Shown: piece after piece, positions 9,101-17,446 of the stretch
Layout of the letters: each line of letters begins with the position of its first letter
Numbering within the stretch: position 1 is the first letter of the stretch
Assembly: GCA_025356475.1 (NCBI GenBank)
Contig: JANXSX010000017.1
Coordinates: 1-47,229, forward strand
Length of the DNA stretch: 47,229 bases
DNA from: Isosphaeraceae bacterium
Lineage (GTDB): Bacteria > Planctomycetota > Planctomycetia > Isosphaerales > Isosphaeraceae
Reading direction: 5' to 3'
Translations under genes and position numbers: made by a program
The notes under the pieces: generated by a model
Seen by the model: only the letters and a program-made list of their open reading frames with translations
The model's database searches: none
Told to the model about the DNA's origin: nothing

Positions 9101-10360
9101 GTGCGAAAGATTCCAACACTCTCCGAGCTTCGTCCACGGGCAGCCGCAACCTCAGCCGCGGTCCGTCAGGTCTGGGTCAGGCGACGCGCCTCGGCCTTGA
9201 CTGCCGGACTCGCCGGACTGGTTGTGGCGACCTCCTTCGCTGTTGCCACGGTCTCGTGGTGGTTGGTCCCTCCTTATCTATTGGTGATGGGCTTCGTCCT
9301 GTTCGCCCCTGGCGGTACAAACGACGAAGAACCGCAACCATCGATCCTGGTCGGACCGCATACCACCATCGAACCACCTGACAATGGCAACGAGGATCTG
9401 TCCCCGGACGAGACGAACGAGGAAGAGTCTGGATCTTCGAACGTAACCGGAAATTCGACCGGTTCGGGCAAGACTCGGCGAGGGAAGAGTCGAGGTAAGC
9501 GATCTGCCAAGACCCAGCCCGAAGTCTCTTCGGAGGCAACCTGGATACAGGTTGGACCCGGGAAGTTCGTCAGGGTTGAGGGATCGGAAGCTTCCAACAA
9601 CTCGCTACCTCAAGAGGAAGCAGCCACGGACCCAACCACAGACCTGGTGGACGATCCATCCGGGCGCGAGGTTGGGGAACCGATCGAACCGACCCCAGCG
9701 TCCCTTCCTATCGAGGACGAGCTGAGCGACGAGTTCGACTCGGCGACTGTTGTGACAGAACTTGAGCCCGATGTGGAGCCGGAGGAATTGGCCGAGGGAT
9801 TGGAGGAGTTTGCCGACGAATCCTTCTCGGAAGAGGTCGAACGAGGCAGGCAAGACGACATGGCGGAGGATAACGGCAACGCGCCGGACGCCTTCGACGA
9901 AGCGAATGACCACGGCAACGCGCCGGAAGCATTTGCGGGGATGTCGGATCTGGCTCACGACACCGAATCCGAAGAGCGATACGCGGAGGATCTCCCTGAT
10001 AGCATTGATGGATCTGGGAGCGAGTCTGTTTCGACCGACCAGGTTGTGACGCTTGTGATCCAGTCTGTCGAGCTTCCAGAACCCGAGGTTGAGTCCGAGG
10101 ATACAGACACCGAGTTTGACGATCACGCCACAGCGTCAGTCGAAGAAGAGCTTATCTGTGCAGAGAACTCGCATGGTGGGACGATTTCTTACTGGGTATC
10201 GACCGGAGTCTTTCCTCCTCGTCGCAACATCCGGTCAGGTCGAACAAATCAAGTGCCGGCAGGTTTCCGTTGCCGATCTAGGCGCGGGCTAGGCCGGAAG
10301 CGGCGTTCGGGACGTCGCTCCCAAATCCGTTCGCCGCCGCGCGTTTGTCGGCATGCCTGA
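9101..10360 (+). CDS. Membrane-anchored acidic low-complexity protein
   Basis: A 419-residue protein starting at GTG. The N-terminus is basic (RRRAS at about 27), then one or two membrane segments run from about 30 to 68 (LAGLVVATSFAVATVSWWLV, then YLLVMGFVLFA). Residues 75-350 are strongly acidic, rich in Glu, Asp, Ser, Thr and Pro, and probably disordered, with a short basic island (TRRGKSRGKR) near 125. A small tandem repeat occurs at about 258-276, where NGNAPDAF and HGNAPEAF are 13 residues apart. The last 45 residues suddenly become strongly basic (RCRSRRGLGRKRRSGRR). That acidic/basic switch could be real or could mark an old frameshift near the end. No homologous family is recognised. 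The gene ends next to a strong bidirectional terminator. Confidence 0.65.
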   Translation: MRKIPTLSELRPRAAATSAAVRQVWVRRRASALTAGLAGLVVATSFAVATVSWWLVPPYLLVMGFVLFAPGGTNDEEPQPSILVGPHTTIEPPDNGNEDLSPDETNEEESGSSNVTGNSTGSGKTRRGKSRGKRSAKTQPEVSSEATWIQVGPGKFVRVEGSEASNNSLPQEEAATDPTTDLVDDPSGREVGEPIEPTPASLPIEDELSDEFDSATVVTELEPDVEPEELAEGLEEFADESFSEEVERGRQDDMAEDNGNAPDAFDEANDHGNAPEAFAGMSDLAHDTESEERYAEDLPDSIDGSGSESVSTDQVVTLVIQSVELPEPEVESEDTDTEFDDHATASVEEELICAENSHGGTISYWVSTGVFPPRRNIRSGRTNQVPAGFRCRSRRGLGRKRRSGRRSQIRSPPRVCRHA

Positions 10361-11415: not shown

Positions 11416-11910
11416 ATGTTCTGGACTGTGTTCTGGACGATCCTTGTCCCACTCCTGGTCTACTGGTTGGTGTTCTTTACGATCCACTTCATGATTGTCG
11501 AGTACGGCCAGAACTACCTCTACGACGAGCCAACCCCTTCAACGGGACTGAAAGTGACCATTGGTTCGTTCATCGCTGCGGTGGCCGCAACCTACTTCCA
11601 GCCTTCGTTCGACACGATGTTCACTACATATCTGCAATGGAGCGCGCTTCAGGCGCTCCTATGGTTTGGCATCTTCACGCTGATCTACCAGTTTCACCCC
11701 CAGCACGGGCTGGGGCTGAGCTTGGCGACCTTCATGCTCTTCCCAGGACTGACCTCAATGGCAGTCGATGGGATTACGCGAGGGTCACCCGCCGCCGCCC
11801 AAACCAAGCTCACCGAACCAGGTAAGGCCGTGCGACGGTCCGCTCCGGCCGGGGCACCGGCACCTGCCGCACCAGACCCGGCCAAAGAGAAGGATGCCGT
11901 CAAGAAGTAA
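11416..11910 (+). CDS. Small membrane protein with Ala/Pro-rich tail
   Basis: A 164-residue protein with about four hydrophobic segments: 5-28, 48-62, 72-92 and 96-112. A hydrophilic Ala/Pro/Lys-rich tail follows from about residue 120 (PAGAPAPAAPDPAKEK). No known family recognised. It starts with MFWTVFW, which reads as an uncleaved first membrane helix. Its last 11 bp overlap, tail to tail, the end of the DUF4349 gene on the other strand, so the two messages are complementary at their 3' ends unless termination is precise. Confidence 0.7.
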   Translation: MFWTVFWTILVPLLVYWLVFFTIHFMIVEYGQNYLYDEPTPSTGLKVTIGSFIAAVAATYFQPSFDTMFTTYLQWSALQALLWFGIFTLIYQFHPQHGLGLSLATFMLFPGLTSMAVDGITRGSPAAAQTKLTEPGKAVRRSAPAGAPAPAAPDPAKEKDAVKK

Positions 11911-12934
11911 CACTGGGAGTGGGTGGGATTGCCGGCTCACCGCGCGGACGAGACTTGAGCCGGCGTCTCACAACACGCGCCACAACCCAAATGGCGGCCA
12001 GGAACGGCACCCAAAGGGTGAGCCAAGGGATGAAATCGACGACCGCAAGGACCAGCCCGCCCAGGTAGTTGGTCAGCCGCTCGGTGCTCAGGGCGAAAGT
12101 GCGGGCGATCATCTGACCAAAGGTGGGCCGTTCGATTGGCTTGAAGTTCTCAACCTCGGTCATCGTCACCGTAATGGTCGACATGGATGTGAGGCTAGTC
12201 AAGACGCGCAGACGACCTTGCATTTGCTCGATTTCGCCGCGAACTCTGCTGATTTCCTTCTCAACATCGAGGATCTCTTTAAGCTTGCCAGTCGCCTCTT
12301 CCAGGATTTTCTTGAGCCTCGACTCTTCCTGCTGCTTGTTCTTGATCCTAGCTTCAATGTCGTAGAACTCGGCGGTGACTTCCTCCGAGTCCTGATGGGT
12401 CTTCTCAAGCTCACCGAGCTTGACGACTGCGGCCATAAAATTGCCGAACTGTTCGACCGGGACGCGGACCTTCCACGAGCCTCGTCGACGGGCACCCGTG
12501 TTGCCACTGACATCCGTCTCGGAGATGTACCCCTTACTCTGCTGGACAAGGGCAGTCAGCCCCTTTTCGGAACTTGACAGGTTCTCGACATTCATATCGA
12601 CGAGCGCATTGTAAACGATCTTACGGTCGAGTGCCGGGGGGATCGGCGTTGCAGACGTCCCGACCTCCGCCGGTGGGGTTTCTGGAGGGGTTGAAGGCAT
12701 CGGCGCCCTTCCGAAACCCATCGCCCCTCCCGCCATCATGCTCCCGCCCATTCCTGGCATTGAGGGGGCAGGACTCGCCGACCTAACCGCCTTTGCCGCT
12801 CGTGAATAGCTCTCTGCGGTCGCCGCCCGCCCCGAAAATTCTGCCACGGAAGCCATCGGTGACGAGTCGCTACATCCCAGAGGGCTGACTGTCCCAAGAA
12901 CGATCAAACCAAGAACCAGGCCGCGACGTGACAT
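11900..12934 (-). CDS. DUF4349 domain lipoprotein
   Basis: A 344-residue putative lipoprotein of the DUF4349 family. The start at 12934 gives MSRRGLVLGL followed by a lipobox (PLGC, Cys21); the longer frame from 12982 would bury it. After a Gly/Met/Pro-rich linker, the DUF4349 core begins at about residue 105 (RKIVYNALVDMNVENL) and contains GSWKVRVPVEQF and KTHQDSEEVTAEFYDIEARI. Residues about 200-260 form a coiled coil with many Glu/Lys/Arg, followed by a strand that includes STITVTMTE. Near the C-terminus a membrane helix (about 300-328) is followed by basic residues. Known family architecture: lipid anchor, periplasmic coiled coil, C-terminal TM. Function unknown; an envelope or mechanical role is inferred. 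Confidence 0.85.
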   Translation of the reverse strand: MSRRGLVLGLIVLGTVSPLGCSDSSPMASVAEFSGRAATAESYSRAAKAVRSASPAPSMPGMGGSMMAGGAMGFGRAPMPSTPPETPPAEVGTSATPIPPALDRKIVYNALVDMNVENLSSSEKGLTALVQQSKGYISETDVSGNTGARRRGSWKVRVPVEQFGNFMAAVVKLGELEKTHQDSEEVTAEFYDIEARIKNKQQEESRLKKILEEATGKLKEILDVEKEISRVRGEIEQMQGRLRVLTSLTSMSTITVTMTEVENFKPIERPTFGQMIARTFALSTERLTNYLGGLVLAVVDFIPWLTLWVPFLAAIWVVARVVRRRLKSRPRGEPAIPPTPSVTS

Positions 12935-13309
12935 GCGATCGTCCTCCCGAGTCAACGTGTTTGCAGGATCCGATACCCACAATACGCGATGAACTAGGAA
13001 ATCTTAGGGACCGGACGATCACAATTTCCCGATTTCTCTCCCACGCACGAATCACTCTGCCTTACGGACCACGCGCCAAAACTCGTTCCCATGTTCCGCG
13101 TGGGAATGCCGTCCTAAACGCTCCTGCGTCCCCTGGTTGAGCCATGGAAGCTCTCAGACACGTGGATTTGGCACAATACGACCTCACTTACATCTCCGGA
13201 TCGAAGAGGACGCAGGAGCGTCGCAGACTGCATTCCCACGGAGGACCATGGGAACGAGTTTCCTAAACAGATTGACTCAAGAAGCGGGAAGTTCTTTCGG
13301 TCCGCTCGA
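12935..13309. other. Gene-free stretch holding a palindromic repeat element
   Basis: 375 bp between the DUF4349 lipoprotein gene and the hpnG-like gene. It contains the inverted repeat element at 13079-13261. Short open frames here have no protein-like features and are explained by the repeat. Confidence 0.6.
13079..13261. repeat. Long palindromic repeat element (two ~54-bp arms)
   Basis: Left arm 13079-13131 and right arm 13208-13261 are inverted copies matching at 46 of 54 aligned positions with one gap; the first 15 and last 14 positions are perfect. A 76-bp unrelated core separates them. Each arm also holds two small hairpins of its own: TTCCCA/TGGGAA and ACGC/GCGT. GGGAATGC...GGAACGAG-type hairpin repeats are familiar to me from several bacterial genomes with many copies, so this may be a REP/BIME-like or MITE-like element. 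Only this one copy is in the window. Confidence 0.75.
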
Positions 13310-14074
13310 TTATTGGCCGAGTTGGGTCAAGGCCCCTTCAAGGAAGGCCGAAAGCCGTTCGGCGGAATCGAGTGCCTGCTGGCGAAGGCTCAGCAGTTCG
13401 CCAAGGACCGAAGGGCGGCGCCACAATGCTCCAAGGGCAGCACCGATGCGGTAACTCCCGGATGAGCCAACAATCGCGAGGATCTCGGACGGCAGATCCA
13501 TATCGGCTGCGTCACTGATGATCCGGACGGACAGAAATCGTTGGAAGCGTTCTGAGCAAAGACGTGCGACAGCGGACGTCTCCATGTCGACCAGGTGCGC
13601 CTGATACTCCTTCCGGAGCTGGGCCTTCTCGACGGCTGTTCGAACAATGGCGTCGACCGTCAACAACCGACCGGTCCGAATTGCCCCCCCCGCAGGGACG
13701 TTCACATCGATCGAGAATCGACTTCCTTCGCGGTCAATGACTTCCGAGACCATGACGATCTCGTTGCGCTGATACCCGGGATCAAGGGCACCGGCAAAGC
13801 CTGCGGAGACGATCCACCGAGGGTGGTGGCCGTCGATGAGCAGGCGGGTGGCACGCGCAGCGGAATTACGGCCCATGCCGGCCATGGTCACCGCAACAAC
13901 TTTGCCCGCCAGTTCCCCCTCGATCACCGAGAATTGGTTTGCTGAGAACTTACGAACGGACTCGAGCTTGGCCAACAAGGGACCGACCTCGATCGGCATG
14001 GCCACAATCAGGCCGATGTCCGCCGAGGTCGGGGATGGGGCCGGACGAGTTGTCAGGCCAAACTGGCTGTTCAT
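13310..14074 (-). CDS. hpnG: HpnG-like adenosylhopane/nucleoside phosphorylase family protein
   Basis: A 254-residue member of the purine nucleoside phosphorylase/MTA-SAH nucleosidase superfamily. Recognisable family features are the N-terminal strand IGLIVAMPIEVGPLL, the VAVTMAGMGRNSA loop, the VSAGFAGALDP motif, VDMETSAVA with the substrate-binding Met-Glu, and the catalytic-type Asp in ISDAADMDLP. In hopanoid producers, HpnG removes adenine from adenosylhopane to give ribosylhopane, the step after HpnH. The gene starts 19 bp downstream of hpnH in the same direction, and this context is the main reason for preferring HpnG over a plain MTA/SAH nucleosidase. The symbol is therefore partly contextual. 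Probably cytoplasmic. Confidence 0.75.
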   Translation of the reverse strand: MNSQFGLTTRPAPSPTSADIGLIVAMPIEVGPLLAKLESVRKFSANQFSVIEGELAGKVVAVTMAGMGRNSAARATRLLIDGHHPRWIVSAGFAGALDPGYQRNEIVMVSEVIDREGSRFSIDVNVPAGGAIRTGRLLTVDAIVRTAVEKAQLRKEYQAHLVDMETSAVARLCSERFQRFLSVRIISDAADMDLPSEILAIVGSSGSYRIGAALGALWRRPSVLGELLSLRQQALDSAERLSAFLEGALTQLGQ

Positions 14075-14093
14075 AGGCTCACCTGACGGATCA

Positions 14094-15101
14094 TCAAGTG
14101 AACTGCCACTTGAGCATTTTCAAGGTGTCGCCGAGCTTAGCGTTCACACCCAACGCAGCCGAAGTCTCGAAACCCGAGTGCATCATGCAATGGTCGCAGC
14201 GGGGGTCATTACCAGGCCCGTACTTCTCCCAGTCCGTCTTGTTGAGGAGGTCGTCCAGGGTTTCGTGATGGGTATCGGTGATCAAGTAGCATGGGCCTTT
14301 CCAGCCCTTGATGTTGCGGGTGGGATTCGCCCACGCGGTGCAACTGAGTTCGCGCTTGCCTTGGAGGAATTCCAGGTAGATCGGCGACGTGTTGAACTTA
14401 TACTTGCGGAACATGGCCTCGGCCGCGCGGAACTTGGTCCGGATGTCGTCGCGAGTCATGAAGATTTCACGAACATTCACCGCTGAGTATCCATACCCAG
14501 GCGAGATCATGAAGCCATCGACACCAAGCTCGGTCAGCATGCCATACATCTGGTCGAGTTCCGCCATGTCGGTCTCCATGAACACCGTGGTGTTCGTGCA
14601 GACCAGGAACCCAGCCTCTTTGGCCGCCTTGATGCCATCAATGGCATCGTCGAAGACCCCTTCACGCTCGACCGCGAGATCGTGGCTCTTCTTCATACCA
14701 TCAAGGTGGACGTTGAAAAAGAACTTATTCGAAGGCTTGAAGTCGGCGATCTTCTTGCGAATGAACATTCCATTCGTACAAAGGTAGACGGTCTTCTTCC
14801 GTTCGAGAATCTTTGCCGTCAGCTCACCAATTCCCGGATAGATCATCGGCTCGCCGCCGCAGATCGACACGACGGGGGCATTGGCTTCATCGACGGCAGC
14901 GAGGCATTCCTCGATCGAGAGCTTCTGCTTGATGGTCGATTCATATTCGCGAATTCGACCACAACCCGTGCAGGTCAGGTTGCAGGCGTGGAGCGGTTCG
15001 AGCATCAAGACCATGGGGAAGCGTTCGGTCCGCTTCAACTTCTTTTTGATCATGTAGCCGGCAATGCTGGTCGTCATCTCGAGCGGAAATCGCAGAGCCA
15101 T
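14094..15101 (-). CDS. hpnH: Adenosyl-hopene transferase HpnH (radical SAM)
   Basis: A 335-residue radical SAM enzyme that joins the 5'-deoxyadenosyl group to a hopene, making adenosylhopane, the precursor of extended (C35) hopanoids. The [4Fe-4S]-binding CxxxCxxC motif is HACNLTCTGC (Cys40, 44, 47). The SAM-binding SICGGEPMIYPGI segment and a C-terminal Cys-rich end (DPRCDHCMMHSGFE) match the HpnH/SPASM-like family. The start at 15101 (MALRFPLEMT) is supported by GAGGAG 12 nt upstream; a longer frame from 15248 would overlap the cyclase gene and adds a basic, unstructured lead. It sits 79 bp after shc and 19 bp before the hpnG-like gene, forming a hopanoid cluster. Confidence 0.92.
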   Translation of the reverse strand: MALRFPLEMTTSIAGYMIKKKLKRTERFPMVLMLEPLHACNLTCTGCGRIREYESTIKQKLSIEECLAAVDEANAPVVSICGGEPMIYPGIGELTAKILERKKTVYLCTNGMFIRKKIADFKPSNKFFFNVHLDGMKKSHDLAVEREGVFDDAIDGIKAAKEAGFLVCTNTTVFMETDMAELDQMYGMLTELGVDGFMISPGYGYSAVNVREIFMTRDDIRTKFRAAEAMFRKYKFNTSPIYLEFLQGKRELSCTAWANPTRNIKGWKGPCYLITDTHHETLDDLLNKTDWEKYGPGNDPRCDHCMMHSGFETSAALGVNAKLGDTLKMLKWQFT

Positions 15102-15180
15102 GATCGGGAATCTCCTCGCGGTCGGGCGGGTCGCCGAGCGCGTCCCTTGAATCCGGCGGCGTCTGTGTTTCGGGCGAAGT

Positions 15181-17196
15181 TCAGAGATCCAAAGGCTTGG
15201 GCGAGGCAGGAACGCCACTGGCGTAGGCAGGTCGTGACTTCGGTGCATTCACTGCCGCCGAATAACGTCCAAGAGCCATCAAAGGGAAGTAACTTCGGTA
15301 CATATGATAACGTAGATAGAACACCAGAGGGAAGCCGGTGCCTGTGAACGGTTCTTCGTTCCAGTCGCCATCGGGGCGTTGGGTATCGATAAGGTACTCG
15401 ATCCCTCGGCGGACCGCTTCGGAATTGGCTCGACCGGCGGAGATCAGCCCCAGCACAGCCCAGGCGGTTTGCGACGCGGTGGGCTCCCCTTGGCCCATTA
15501 GGCTGCGGTCGGCATAGCTCTCGCAGGACTCGCCCCAGCCCCCGTCGGGCTGCTGGACCGATTCGAGCCAATCGCAGGCCTTGGCAACAGCGGGGTGACC
15601 ATCTTTGATACCAAGCGTGGCAAGACCCTGAAGACTCTGCCAGGTCCCGTATACATAGTTCACCCCCCAGCGCCCGTACCAACAGCCCTCCGGCTCCTGG
15701 GTCTTCCAGAGATAGTCAAGAGCTTTCTTGACCTTGGGATGGTCGGTCGTGAAGTCGAGCAGGCCAAGCAGTTCAAGGACTCGCGCTGTGATGTCGGCAC
15801 AGCTTGGGTCGAGAATTGCGTTGTGGTCGGCGAACGGAACATGTTGCAGGAGTTCGAGCGTGATGTCCTTGTCGAAGGCCGCCCAGCCTCCGTCACGATT
15901 CTGCATTTCCAGGAGCCAATCGAGCCCCCGCTTGCTGGCAGCCTGGACTGCGGGAGTTGACGCCAGACTCGACCGTCTGAACGCGAGTAGGACCATCACC
16001 GTGTCATCGAAGTCGGGATAAAACGCGTTCGCGAACTGGAAGGGCCAGCCGGTCGGTTCCAGCTTCGTCCGCCGGCCGAGTGAGGAATCCGCCTTGCTCC
16101 GTACCTCGCGGTCCAGTAGCCAACGCGTTGCATTCTCAATCGCAGCGTCGTCAGCCGGCAATTCTGCATCAGCAAGTGCAATTATGCTGATTGCGGTATC
16201 CCACACGGGGGAAAGGCAAGGCTGGAGGTGGGCGGTCTCACCGGTATCCACAACCAATTCGTCGAGCCGCTGAAATGCCCACTGGACCATGGGATCACTG
16301 GAGTTGTAGCCCAGAGCCCGCAAGGCGACGACGGTGTAGATCATGGGGGGGAAGATCGCACCCAGACCATCGGAGTTCTCGAAGTGTTCGAGCATCCAGC
16401 GATGGGCGGCACGAAGACCAGGCTTCCGCCACGACTGAGGCATCCAGTTGTCGCACCACTTCAGCGCCTTATCCACCCCAAGGAAGAAGTTCCGCCAGGA
16501 GAACTTCTTAGGCGACCGCTTCATCCCCTTGGGAAGATCCTCCCGGAAGAGTTCGGCGATGCCCCGCTCGATGGGCAAAGGCCGGCACGGCTTGAGGCCC
16601 GAGATGATCATCAAGGGAACGATGATCGTCTGGGTCCAGACCGACATCCTCCCCAGAATCATCCGGTGGGGGAACAACGTGACTTCGGCGGGAACACTGG
16701 GAACCTCGTCGTAGCCAACCTGGCCCAAGAGGGCTAAGTAGAAGCGAGTGAAGCTGTTACACGCCTGCGCCCCACCGAGTTCCAGGATGGTCCGCCGTGC
16801 TCGGGCCATGTCGGGCTCATTGGGAGAGACACCGACCAGCTTGAGGACGAAGTAGGCTTTGACACTCGCGGAGATCTCCGCAGGTCCGCCCAGATAGATC
16901 GCCCAACCACCGGTCGGGAGCTGTTGCTCCCGGACGCTTTTACAGAGCTTGAGGCAAAGGGTTTCGTGCTCGCGGCCAAGGTAGGCCATCAAGAGTACGA
17001 ACTCGGATTCGAGGATCGTGTCGCCTTCGAGCTCACCTAGCCAATAACCTTCACTGTGCTGATGGTCGAGGAACCACTGTCGAGTTCTCGCCAGAGCGGC
17101 TTCGAGCGCGATCTCGGAAACCCCTTCGCCGATCCCGTAGGACGAGCCCGACCCCGACGATCGGCGGATTGCGCCGCCATCCGTGTTGGCGATCAT
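15181..17196 (-). CDS. shc: Squalene-hopene cyclase
   Basis: A 671-residue terpene cyclase that folds squalene into hopene/hopanol, the first committed step of hopanoid synthesis, monotopic at the inner membrane. The catalytic acid motif is DFDD (Asp395, 397, 398, in YPDFDDTVM), matching the DXDD class of squalene-hopene cyclases. Several QW repeats are visible, such as QNRDGGWAAFD, QEPEGCWYGRWGVNYVYG, QQPDGGWGES and QRPDGDWNEEPFTG. Length is normal for the family (about 630-720). I prefer the ATG at 17196 (MIANTDGG) because GGGAGAGG lies about 10 nt upstream; the ATG at 17286 would add 30 residues without such a site. hpnH and the hpnG-like gene follow in the same direction. Confidence 0.95.
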   Translation of the reverse strand: MIANTDGGAIRRSSGSGSSYGIGEGVSEIALEAALARTRQWFLDHQHSEGYWLGELEGDTILESEFVLLMAYLGREHETLCLKLCKSVREQQLPTGGWAIYLGGPAEISASVKAYFVLKLVGVSPNEPDMARARRTILELGGAQACNSFTRFYLALLGQVGYDEVPSVPAEVTLFPHRMILGRMSVWTQTIIVPLMIISGLKPCRPLPIERGIAELFREDLPKGMKRSPKKFSWRNFFLGVDKALKWCDNWMPQSWRKPGLRAAHRWMLEHFENSDGLGAIFPPMIYTVVALRALGYNSSDPMVQWAFQRLDELVVDTGETAHLQPCLSPVWDTAISIIALADAELPADDAAIENATRWLLDREVRSKADSSLGRRTKLEPTGWPFQFANAFYPDFDDTVMVLLAFRRSSLASTPAVQAASKRGLDWLLEMQNRDGGWAAFDKDITLELLQHVPFADHNAILDPSCADITARVLELLGLLDFTTDHPKVKKALDYLWKTQEPEGCWYGRWGVNYVYGTWQSLQGLATLGIKDGHPAVAKACDWLESVQQPDGGWGESCESYADRSLMGQGEPTASQTAWAVLGLISAGRANSEAVRRGIEYLIDTQRPDGDWNEEPFTGTGFPLVFYLRYHMYRSYFPLMALGRYSAAVNAPKSRPAYASGVPASPKPLDL

Positions 17197-17446
17197 GCGG
17201 TCCTGGCCCTCTCCCGGTTCTGTGGAACCCGCATGCGGAACGCGGGCCGAGACGCTTTGGAAAAACCGAGCCCTCGGCCCAGTCATTGCTTGTGGACCGC
17301 CATCGTAACGGGATGACTCGACCGATCAAGATCATACCGTAGGGTTTGCGCCGACTTTGTGGGGTTTTTTTCTGAGCGGACACAAGTATTGCCGGAGAAC
17401 CCGGCCCAGCTTGCCAAGCTTCACTCCAAGCGTGCCGGGCAAGTCG

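Follow-up and report, generated by a model that had tools for sequence, protein, structure and literature searches.

A CTCG-tagged hairpin doublet carried inside a decayed MITE of an Isosphaeraceae bacterium: a probable gene-less form of a RAYT element

Could a 183-nt palindrome lying directly behind the stop codon of a bacterial gene be a local terminator, or does it belong to a family of repeats that spreads through the genome? The question is raised by positions 13079–13261 of the window, by which we mean the whole analysed stretch of 47,229 nucleotides (contig JANXSX010000017.1 of an Isosphaeraceae bacterium). A preliminary description of this DNA had taken the palindrome for a non-autonomous repeat of the REP or MITE type. 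We consider it quite probable that the feature is a non-autonomous, gene-less doublet of a RAYT (REP-associated tyrosine transposase) element that is carried inside a second repeat, a MITE. The earlier assignment is supported with a refinement, as the locus would be a REP-type doublet and a MITE passenger at once.

The palindrome and its copies in the same genome

A gapped alignment of the two arms (53 and 54 nt) matched in 46 of 54 columns with one single-base gap. When gaps were disallowed, the best 54-nt inverted match with arms no more than 320 bp apart in the whole window had 37 matching positions, at 13078–13261, compared with 30–32 in five shuffles of two-base blocks, which, being few, provide a rough control. 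Among inverted pairs of 30 nt or more, two were listed in the 47-kb window, and only the palindrome has close arms; those of the other pair lie 9.7 kb apart. Folded as DNA, the 183 nt reached −55.4 kcal/mol, compared with −25.7 on average for shuffled sequences (sd 3.8; z = −7.8), and 0 of 200 shuffles folded as well. Similarly, each arm folded alone into two main hairpins (z = −4.5 and −6.1). The alignment and the shuffles bear out the preliminary description, which had seen two ~54-bp inverted arms (46/54 matching) around a 76-bp core, and the folding agrees with its small hairpins in each arm (Table 1). It was also correct that the arms are more conserved at their ends than in the middle, because both hairpins are conserved and the linker between them is free. 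As had been claimed, no gene was recognised in the core; only the start of a mechanical 105-aa open reading frame (13137–13454) overlaps it. The extent given at the time, 13079–13261, does hold the arms but is too narrow, as the element reaches from about 13007 to 13309. No Rfam family was found at gathering scores within the window.

Table 1. Features of the composite element and of its two neighbouring genes (positions in the window)
Feature	Position	Strand	Basis
Whole composite element: decayed MITE with hairpin doublet, 303 bp; ends ± a few bases	13007..13309	.	homology
MITE left terminal inverted repeat, decayed; family consensus GGAAYGCTGACGAAAYAACYTCCC	13007..13030	+	
Left arm of doublet: tag, hairpin 1, linker, hairpin 2	13079..13131	+	alignment, folding
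Tag CTCG, left; 5' foot of hairpin 1, outer end of the arm	13082..13085	+	
Hairpin 1, left (TTCCCA...TGGGAA)	13086..13106	+	pattern scan, folding
Hairpin 2, left (ACGC TCCT GCGT)	13118..13129	+	folding
Core, 76 bp; poorly conserved between copies	13132..13207	.	copy alignment
Right arm of doublet, inverted	13208..13261	-	alignment, folding
Hairpin 2, right (GACGC TCCT GCGTC on the minus strand)	13209..13222	-	folding
Hairpin 1, right	13233..13254	-	pattern scan, folding
Tag CTCG, right (CGAG on the plus strand)	13255..13258	-	
MITE right terminal inverted repeat, decayed	13286..13309	-	
Phosphorylase-superfamily gene; stop codon abuts the element	13310..14074	-	best NCBIfam match HpnG
DUF4349 protein gene; called start about 25 bp from the element	11900..12982	-	

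Is the arm confined to this locus? A BLAST search of the window's own genome (G000, a 5.9-Mb draft assembly of 232 contigs) with 221 bases as query returned 47 matches, and nine places covered at least 183 of the 221 query bases: the window itself and eight others at 77–81% identity. Alignment showed that all nine are inverted pairs with both hairpins in each arm. About 14 further places, counted from the BLAST rows, have only part of the pair: one arm, one hairpin or a fragment. Furthermore, the hairpin pattern TTCCCAN3-12TGGGAA was found at 35 places in this genome, compared with 2 for the reversed control pattern. Because the genome holds nine inverted pairs and about 14 shorter relatives, the palindrome is a repeat family and not a local terminator. 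The whole-genome arm search proposed in the preliminary description thus found a multi-copy arm arranged in inverted pairs, and an arm occurring here only, the observation that was to speak against a repeat, is not what the genome holds. The resulting number, about 23 places with the short palindrome, is low for a REP family, for which more than 100 copies per genome are usual according to a passage of PMC2817692.

The element comes immediately after the stop codon of the HpnG-like gene, itself preceded by a radical SAM/DUF3463 gene, and before the DUF4349 gene. The HpnG match of the phosphorylase-superfamily gene scored 111.5 bits, below the cut-off of 187.1. At 13310–17286 on the minus strand, a squalene-hopene cyclase gene (recognised by eye), the radical SAM/DUF3463 gene, whose product we take to be HpnH-like, and the HpnG-like phosphorylase gene stand in a row, which is likely a hopanoid operon ending at the element. 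Elsewhere in the window, at 9856–9933, two head-to-tail 39-nt repeats, 77% alike, lie within the open frame 9101–10360.

Could the element be kept as a terminator or a 3' stabiliser of its neighbours' mRNA, with its likeness to mobile ends being secondary? It does abut a stop codon, and around 19 copies in G000, the gene ends no more than 70 bp away comprised 13 3' ends and two 5' ends, and those no more than 400 bp away 19 and 12, respectively; the element spans in this count were partly set by hand, the ORF caller was crude and the 70-bp rows were counted by eye. However, such a role needs neither unrelated sites in number, nor inverted pairing, nor linkage to a transposase, nor embedding in a MITE, and the position could equally reflect the target or selection against other sites. 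We consider this explanation improbable; judging from its position, the element may end or protect the transcript of the HpnG-like gene.

The enclosing MITE and the joint at CTCG

Of the nine full-length copies in G000, five have both outer flanks in common, C151 adds a sixth in the opposite orientation, and the copy on C89 shares the left flank only. An intact sister copy of the composite element measures 304 bp (G000:C163:56273-56576); the window copy is a strongly decayed 303-bp form. The 24-bp terminal inverted repeats (GGAAYGCTGACGAAAYAACYTCCC) had 46 matches with at most three mismatches in the genome, compared with 0 for the control. Copies came as a hairpin-less 125-bp form (C85, C156, C181, C184 and, at 92% over bases 7–125, C59), a 156-bp form with one hairpin (five copies measured) and the 304-bp form with the doublet (C163). 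Being multi-copy, free of genes, bounded by terminal inverted repeats and present in several lengths, this enclosing repeat has the properties of a MITE. No target-site duplication was seen by eye in the flanks of the MITE copies examined, and no transposase gene was seen between the terminal inverted repeats in the fragments examined.

The extra 31 or 179 bp of the longer forms sit at one position, with CTCGT on either side. Excising 31 or 179 bases at a single position converted six of six copies tried into the 125-bp form with 4–6 mismatches. At the exact joint, copies without hairpins read AAAACTCG directly followed by TGAGC, compared with CTCGTTCCCA...GGGAACGAGT followed by CTCGTGAGC in copies with hairpins. 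The excised piece can be placed in equivalent ways, in one of which it begins with CTCGTTCCCA and ends with GGGAACGAGT, and the second CTCGT comes after it. On C192, the CTCGT repeat is shortened through one change.

Did the hairpins enter the MITE, or were they lost from it? If they were inserted, the hairpin-less MITE would be the untouched original, and singlets or doublets would have jumped into its CTCG, which is compatible with the RAYT-doublet reading. Insertion of an HUH element 3' of a CTCG target would produce exactly this joint. However, in a FastTree tree of 18 flank-joined copies, four diverged copies, C14, C228, C51 and the window, carry hairpins and group together (support 0.95), whereas the five hairpin-less copies fall among near-identical young ones. 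Diverged copies with hairpins and young copies without them favour loss, and the position of the five fits an exact loss; the view that the 125-bp MITE is simply an empty target was therefore dropped. On the other hand, a diverged 122-bp MITE copy at C151:24598-24719 has no hairpin and groups with the diverged copies (local support 0.97), so that loss no longer sufficed as an explanation and was dropped as the only source of the 125-bp form. The other nodes of the tree, many in number, are poorly supported, and the contig with a partial MITE match at C95 ends before the joint. On this evidence, insertion appears to us quite possible, though short of probable. The boundary is exact whichever direction was taken, and slippage between the CTCGT repeats could yield the same joint as a transposase.

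Other MITE copies show further arrangements. The ends at L062, L066, L068, L070, L071 and L074 enclose shorter interiors (54–98 bp in total), and the shortest form is a near-perfect 54-bp palindrome. Some copies (L058, L063, L007 and L037) sit mid-way in an older palindrome; when 19 copies were compared with permutations, 56 of 2000 permutations were as good and 4 of the 19 copies were strong, a weak effect that is no more than suggestive of MITE insertion into pre-existing palindromes. At L075 (G000:C105:59800-66800), a ~1.9 kb group II intron with a reverse transcriptase lies inside a MITE copy (about 135–2040), at the foot and stem of the MITE's hairpin, and half of a MITE on C157 (L060) is bordered by a comparable intron-end sequence. 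The group II intron may use the hairpin as its landing site.

Arms in other genomes and around RAYT genes

Matches to the element were found in at least 8 of 40 genomes, with a query that included no more than about 20 MITE bases per side: G000 itself, six genomes of the same family (G006, G008, G009, G014, G017 and G024) and one of the same class (G039). Of 294 genomes sampled from the phylum, four, G000 included, had the strict two-hairpin pattern; the sample listed no other genome of the same family. Among named genomes, the two-hairpin arm was found in at least 120 stretches, several of them from the same genomes. The hosts among the matches listed were Pseudomonas, Thiomargarita and other Thiotrichaceae, Methylobacter, Thiodictyon and Desulfobacteraceae, together with Calditrichota, Ardenticatenaceae, Gemmataceae and Singulisphaera; many of these genomes are MAGs, in which binning errors are possible, and the phylum placement of some of the taxa is presumed.

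A looser pattern found 241 arms in the 120 listed stretches. Of 93 non-overlapping neighbours less than 300 bp apart, 71 were inverted with their tags outward, as in the window, 12 were inverted with their tags inward, and 10 ran in one direction; before overlaps were removed, the tags-outward pairs numbered 73 of 95, two of the 73 overlapping and maybe marking one place. Inverted doublets are thus over-represented in the listed stretches (71/93) as they are in G000 (9 of 9 pairs). Tandem arms at spacings of about 152–168 bp were observed at L155, L158 and L165 (Pseudomonas lurida; Thiotrichaceae and Thiomargarita MAGs).

How much of the arm is kept? Over 188 distinct arms, the tag positions carried 1.4–2.0 bits of information, the positions upstream 0.3 and then nearly 0 bits, and those behind hairpin 2 at most 0.1. 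Since the seed pattern fixed CTCG, the tag was counted separately in 54 arms from outside this pattern, where it read ATCG in 26, CTCG in 22 and otherwise in 6. A change on one side of a stem was accompanied by one on the opposite side: the inner pairs of hairpin 1 were kept in 185 and 186 of the 188 arms, compared with shuffle maxima of 164 and 174, and the outer pair of hairpin 2 in 136 of 160 arms whose hairpin 2 could be recognised, compared with a shuffle maximum of 81; these counts concern stem positions that the search pattern left unfixed, and related sequences inflate them. The main pair types seen, CG, AT, GC and TA, are compensatory ones.

Do the MITE ends accompany the arms? In 229 loci (1.16 Mb, three of them stretches of the own genome), the MITE ends gave one chance-like hit with at most five mismatches, compared with seven in L001–L009; they do not travel along with the arms. 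This bears on the explanation that the whole ~303-bp unit is an ordinary MITE of another transposase, its inner hairpins being mere interior and unrelated to RAYTs. Six of the nine doublets in G000 have MITE flanks on both sides, most of the diverged MITE copies examined carry a hairpin, and the search of G000 found none of the RAYT subfamily described below. However, hairpin-less MITE copies exist, and at least 7 of 39 other genomes and at least 120 stretches from named genomes have the arms but lack the MITE ends; in the named genomes, the arms stand alone or frame a RAYT. We hold the explanation by an ordinary MITE alone to be improbable.

The RAYT genes in question belong to one subfamily, of which seven copies are framed by the arms on both sides (L209, L212, L281, L093/L280, L301, L088/L285 and L336). 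In a Methylobacter MAG (L209) and a Thiodictyon MAG (L212), the RAYT lies between inverted arms, and the two genes are 60% identical. With 106.9, 101.5 and 92.2 bits, respectively, L209, L212 and L301 exceed the cut-off of 80 of NF047646, the NCBIfam family for RAYTs. Subfamily members at 45–57% identity, with hairpin 1 inverted on both sides, are found at L093/L280, L281, L088/L285 and L301. Of these, L093/L280 (G324, Planctomycetota) has one stop in its frame, L281 (G006, from the window's own family) has a broken frame, and the gene at L088/L285 (G086) is internally deleted, the right end of L285 having been read by eye. On a Salinivibrio kushneri plasmid (L301), hairpin 2 was not seen, and both ends were read by eye. 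At L336 (G228), both ends surround an internally deleted RAYT of which pieces of 29–46 aa at 37–62% are left. L334 and L335, at contig ends of G324, have the hairpin on the visible side and are perhaps two halves of one copy. Four short RAYT fragments (L337–L340; 25–59 aa aligned) were not framed.

Y1_Tnp (PF01797) was tried as a probe for the mobiliser and rejected, as it found other lineages and was nearly blind to the framed RAYT: L212 matched 0 families, and L209 lay just under the cut-off. NF047646 and tblastn were therefore used. In the 30 Y1_Tnp loci checked, taken from 49 matches, the arm occurred only at L114, on one side only, and in 30 NF047646 loci only at L260, which is the same place as L093. 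Five plasmid records contained a RAYT, one at 57% and the others at no more than 34%, and no RAYT was found in phages at E 1e-5. L302 (a RAYT at 34%) showed no such hairpin in the 180–220 bp read, yet it passes NF047646; a pass is therefore not specific. At L282 (G228:C49), another palindrome, GGGTTCAG...CTGAACCC, frames a RAYT that shares 39% identity with L212. It looks as if each RAYT lineage had an end hairpin of its own.

Is there a mobiliser in the window's own genome? In the draft of 232 contigs, the framed RAYT subfamily had no match at E 0.001, and the best RAYT match lay under the NF047646 cut-off; therefore, as far as the G000 draft shows, the window's ends would be orphans. Four Y1/RAYT-like loci of G000 that were examined had no such hairpins. 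Among the six genomes of the same family with arms besides G000, most of them incomplete, only G006 has the framed RAYT. The preliminary description had suggested a search for a TnpA-REP or HUH transposase, and a framed one does exist, with one match in the same-family genome G006, but not in G000 at that threshold. When G006 was compared with G024 for an occupied and an empty site of the RAYT unit, the flanks were found at 83% and 81%, but on different contigs, and gave no clean pair.

Known relatives and a proposed mechanism

The closest kind appears to be the ends of TIRtrons, a likeness of description rather than of sequence letters. TIRtrons, or TIRYTs, are described in passages of Di Nocera et al. 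2013 (PMC3733652) as RAYTs framed by long, partly double palindromic TIRs that are also dispersed as dimers. Here, too, a RAYT-type gene lies between inverted, palindrome-holding ends in some genomes (L209, L212, L281, L280, L285, L301 and L336), and the ends also occur alone as dimers. On the other hand, TIRs and TIRtrons coexist in a limited number of genomes according to the same passages, whereas here one arm type is found in several phyla.

REPINs, or BIMEs, consist of two inverted REP units and a spacer that form one long hairpin, and they have an associated tyrosine transposase (Bertels and Rainey 2011, PMC3116915, in part). The logic of the inverted doublet, the long hairpin fold and the linkage to a tyrosine transposase are shared with the present family. 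In contrast to REPINs, each unit here has two hairpins, the foot of the hairpin bears CTCG or ATCG instead of a 5' GT[AG]G tag, and a cognate RAYT gave 0 matches in G000 at E 0.001. Atypical structures other than GT[AG]G are described for subclass 2.6 and class 3 of TnpA-REP in the part of Quentin et al. 2018 (PMC6006769) that treats them. As here, these RAYTs are framed by structures without GTAG that have copies elsewhere in the genome, and class 3 occurs in Planctomycetes; however, the foot in class 3 is CnGA, and subclass 2.6 is found mostly in Bacteroidetes (PMC6006769, same part).

Passages of PMC3733652 distinguish two REP superfamilies, GTAG and CGTC, and describe REP dimers inside palindromes, namely A. 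variabilis GTAG-15 and H. neapolitanus CGTC-1. The present case is similar in that a REP dimer is nested in another palindromic repeat, but in those passages target palindromes free of the REP were not found, whereas G000 has both states of the host repeat. Five letter strings from the arm, searched in literature text, returned only papers that are unrelated by title and start of abstract, and a Thiomargarita paper (PMC4853749) describes MITEs, but TTCCCA is absent from its main text. We regard the CTCG-tagged two-hairpin doublet as a new variant of the known RAYT/REP-type elements.

How might such a doublet move? Each arm would be a transposon-type end, composed of the CTCG tag, hairpin 1 (GTTCCCA...TGGGAATGC), a free linker and hairpin 2 (GACGC...GCGTC), with the tag occupying the position that GTAG has in canonical REPs. 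A short core flanked by two such arms in opposite orientation, the REPIN arrangement, would correspond to the RAYT element minus its gene. In HUH systems, the hairpin is recognised on single-stranded DNA, and the tetranucleotide at its foot guides cleavage (PMC6006769, in part). By analogy with these systems, we infer that an HUH/tyrosine transposase would bind the hairpins on single-stranded DNA, cut at the CTCG tag and join the piece beside a CTCG elsewhere. Cutting and joining at CTCG would leave the joint seen in the MITE. The window copy is old and decayed, with no cognate transposase detectable in G000. The RAYT-doublet reading draws on a repeat family with sharp ends and inverted pairing, on the RAYT linkage in other genomes and on the filled and unfilled MITE.

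A wider scenario is tentative and, in our view, rather doubtful as a whole. One RAYT family with two-hairpin CTCG ends would have spread over several phyla with almost no change in the sequence of these ends, moving as end, gene and end and shedding gene-less doublets by internal deletion, with L285 and L336 caught halfway. In G000, doublets would have entered the MITE at CTCG, been carried along with it and perhaps been cut out again exactly.

The family bears on how REPs spread, and particularly on whether RAYTs act as moving elements or only as domesticated enzymes. It offers a testable pair, a short, highly conserved non-GTAG end and the gene that it frames, in Gammaproteobacteria and Planctomycetota, together with halfway deletion forms and an exact filled and unfilled joint within one genome. 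Finally, a tag other than GTAG would widen the tag rule by which REPs are found.
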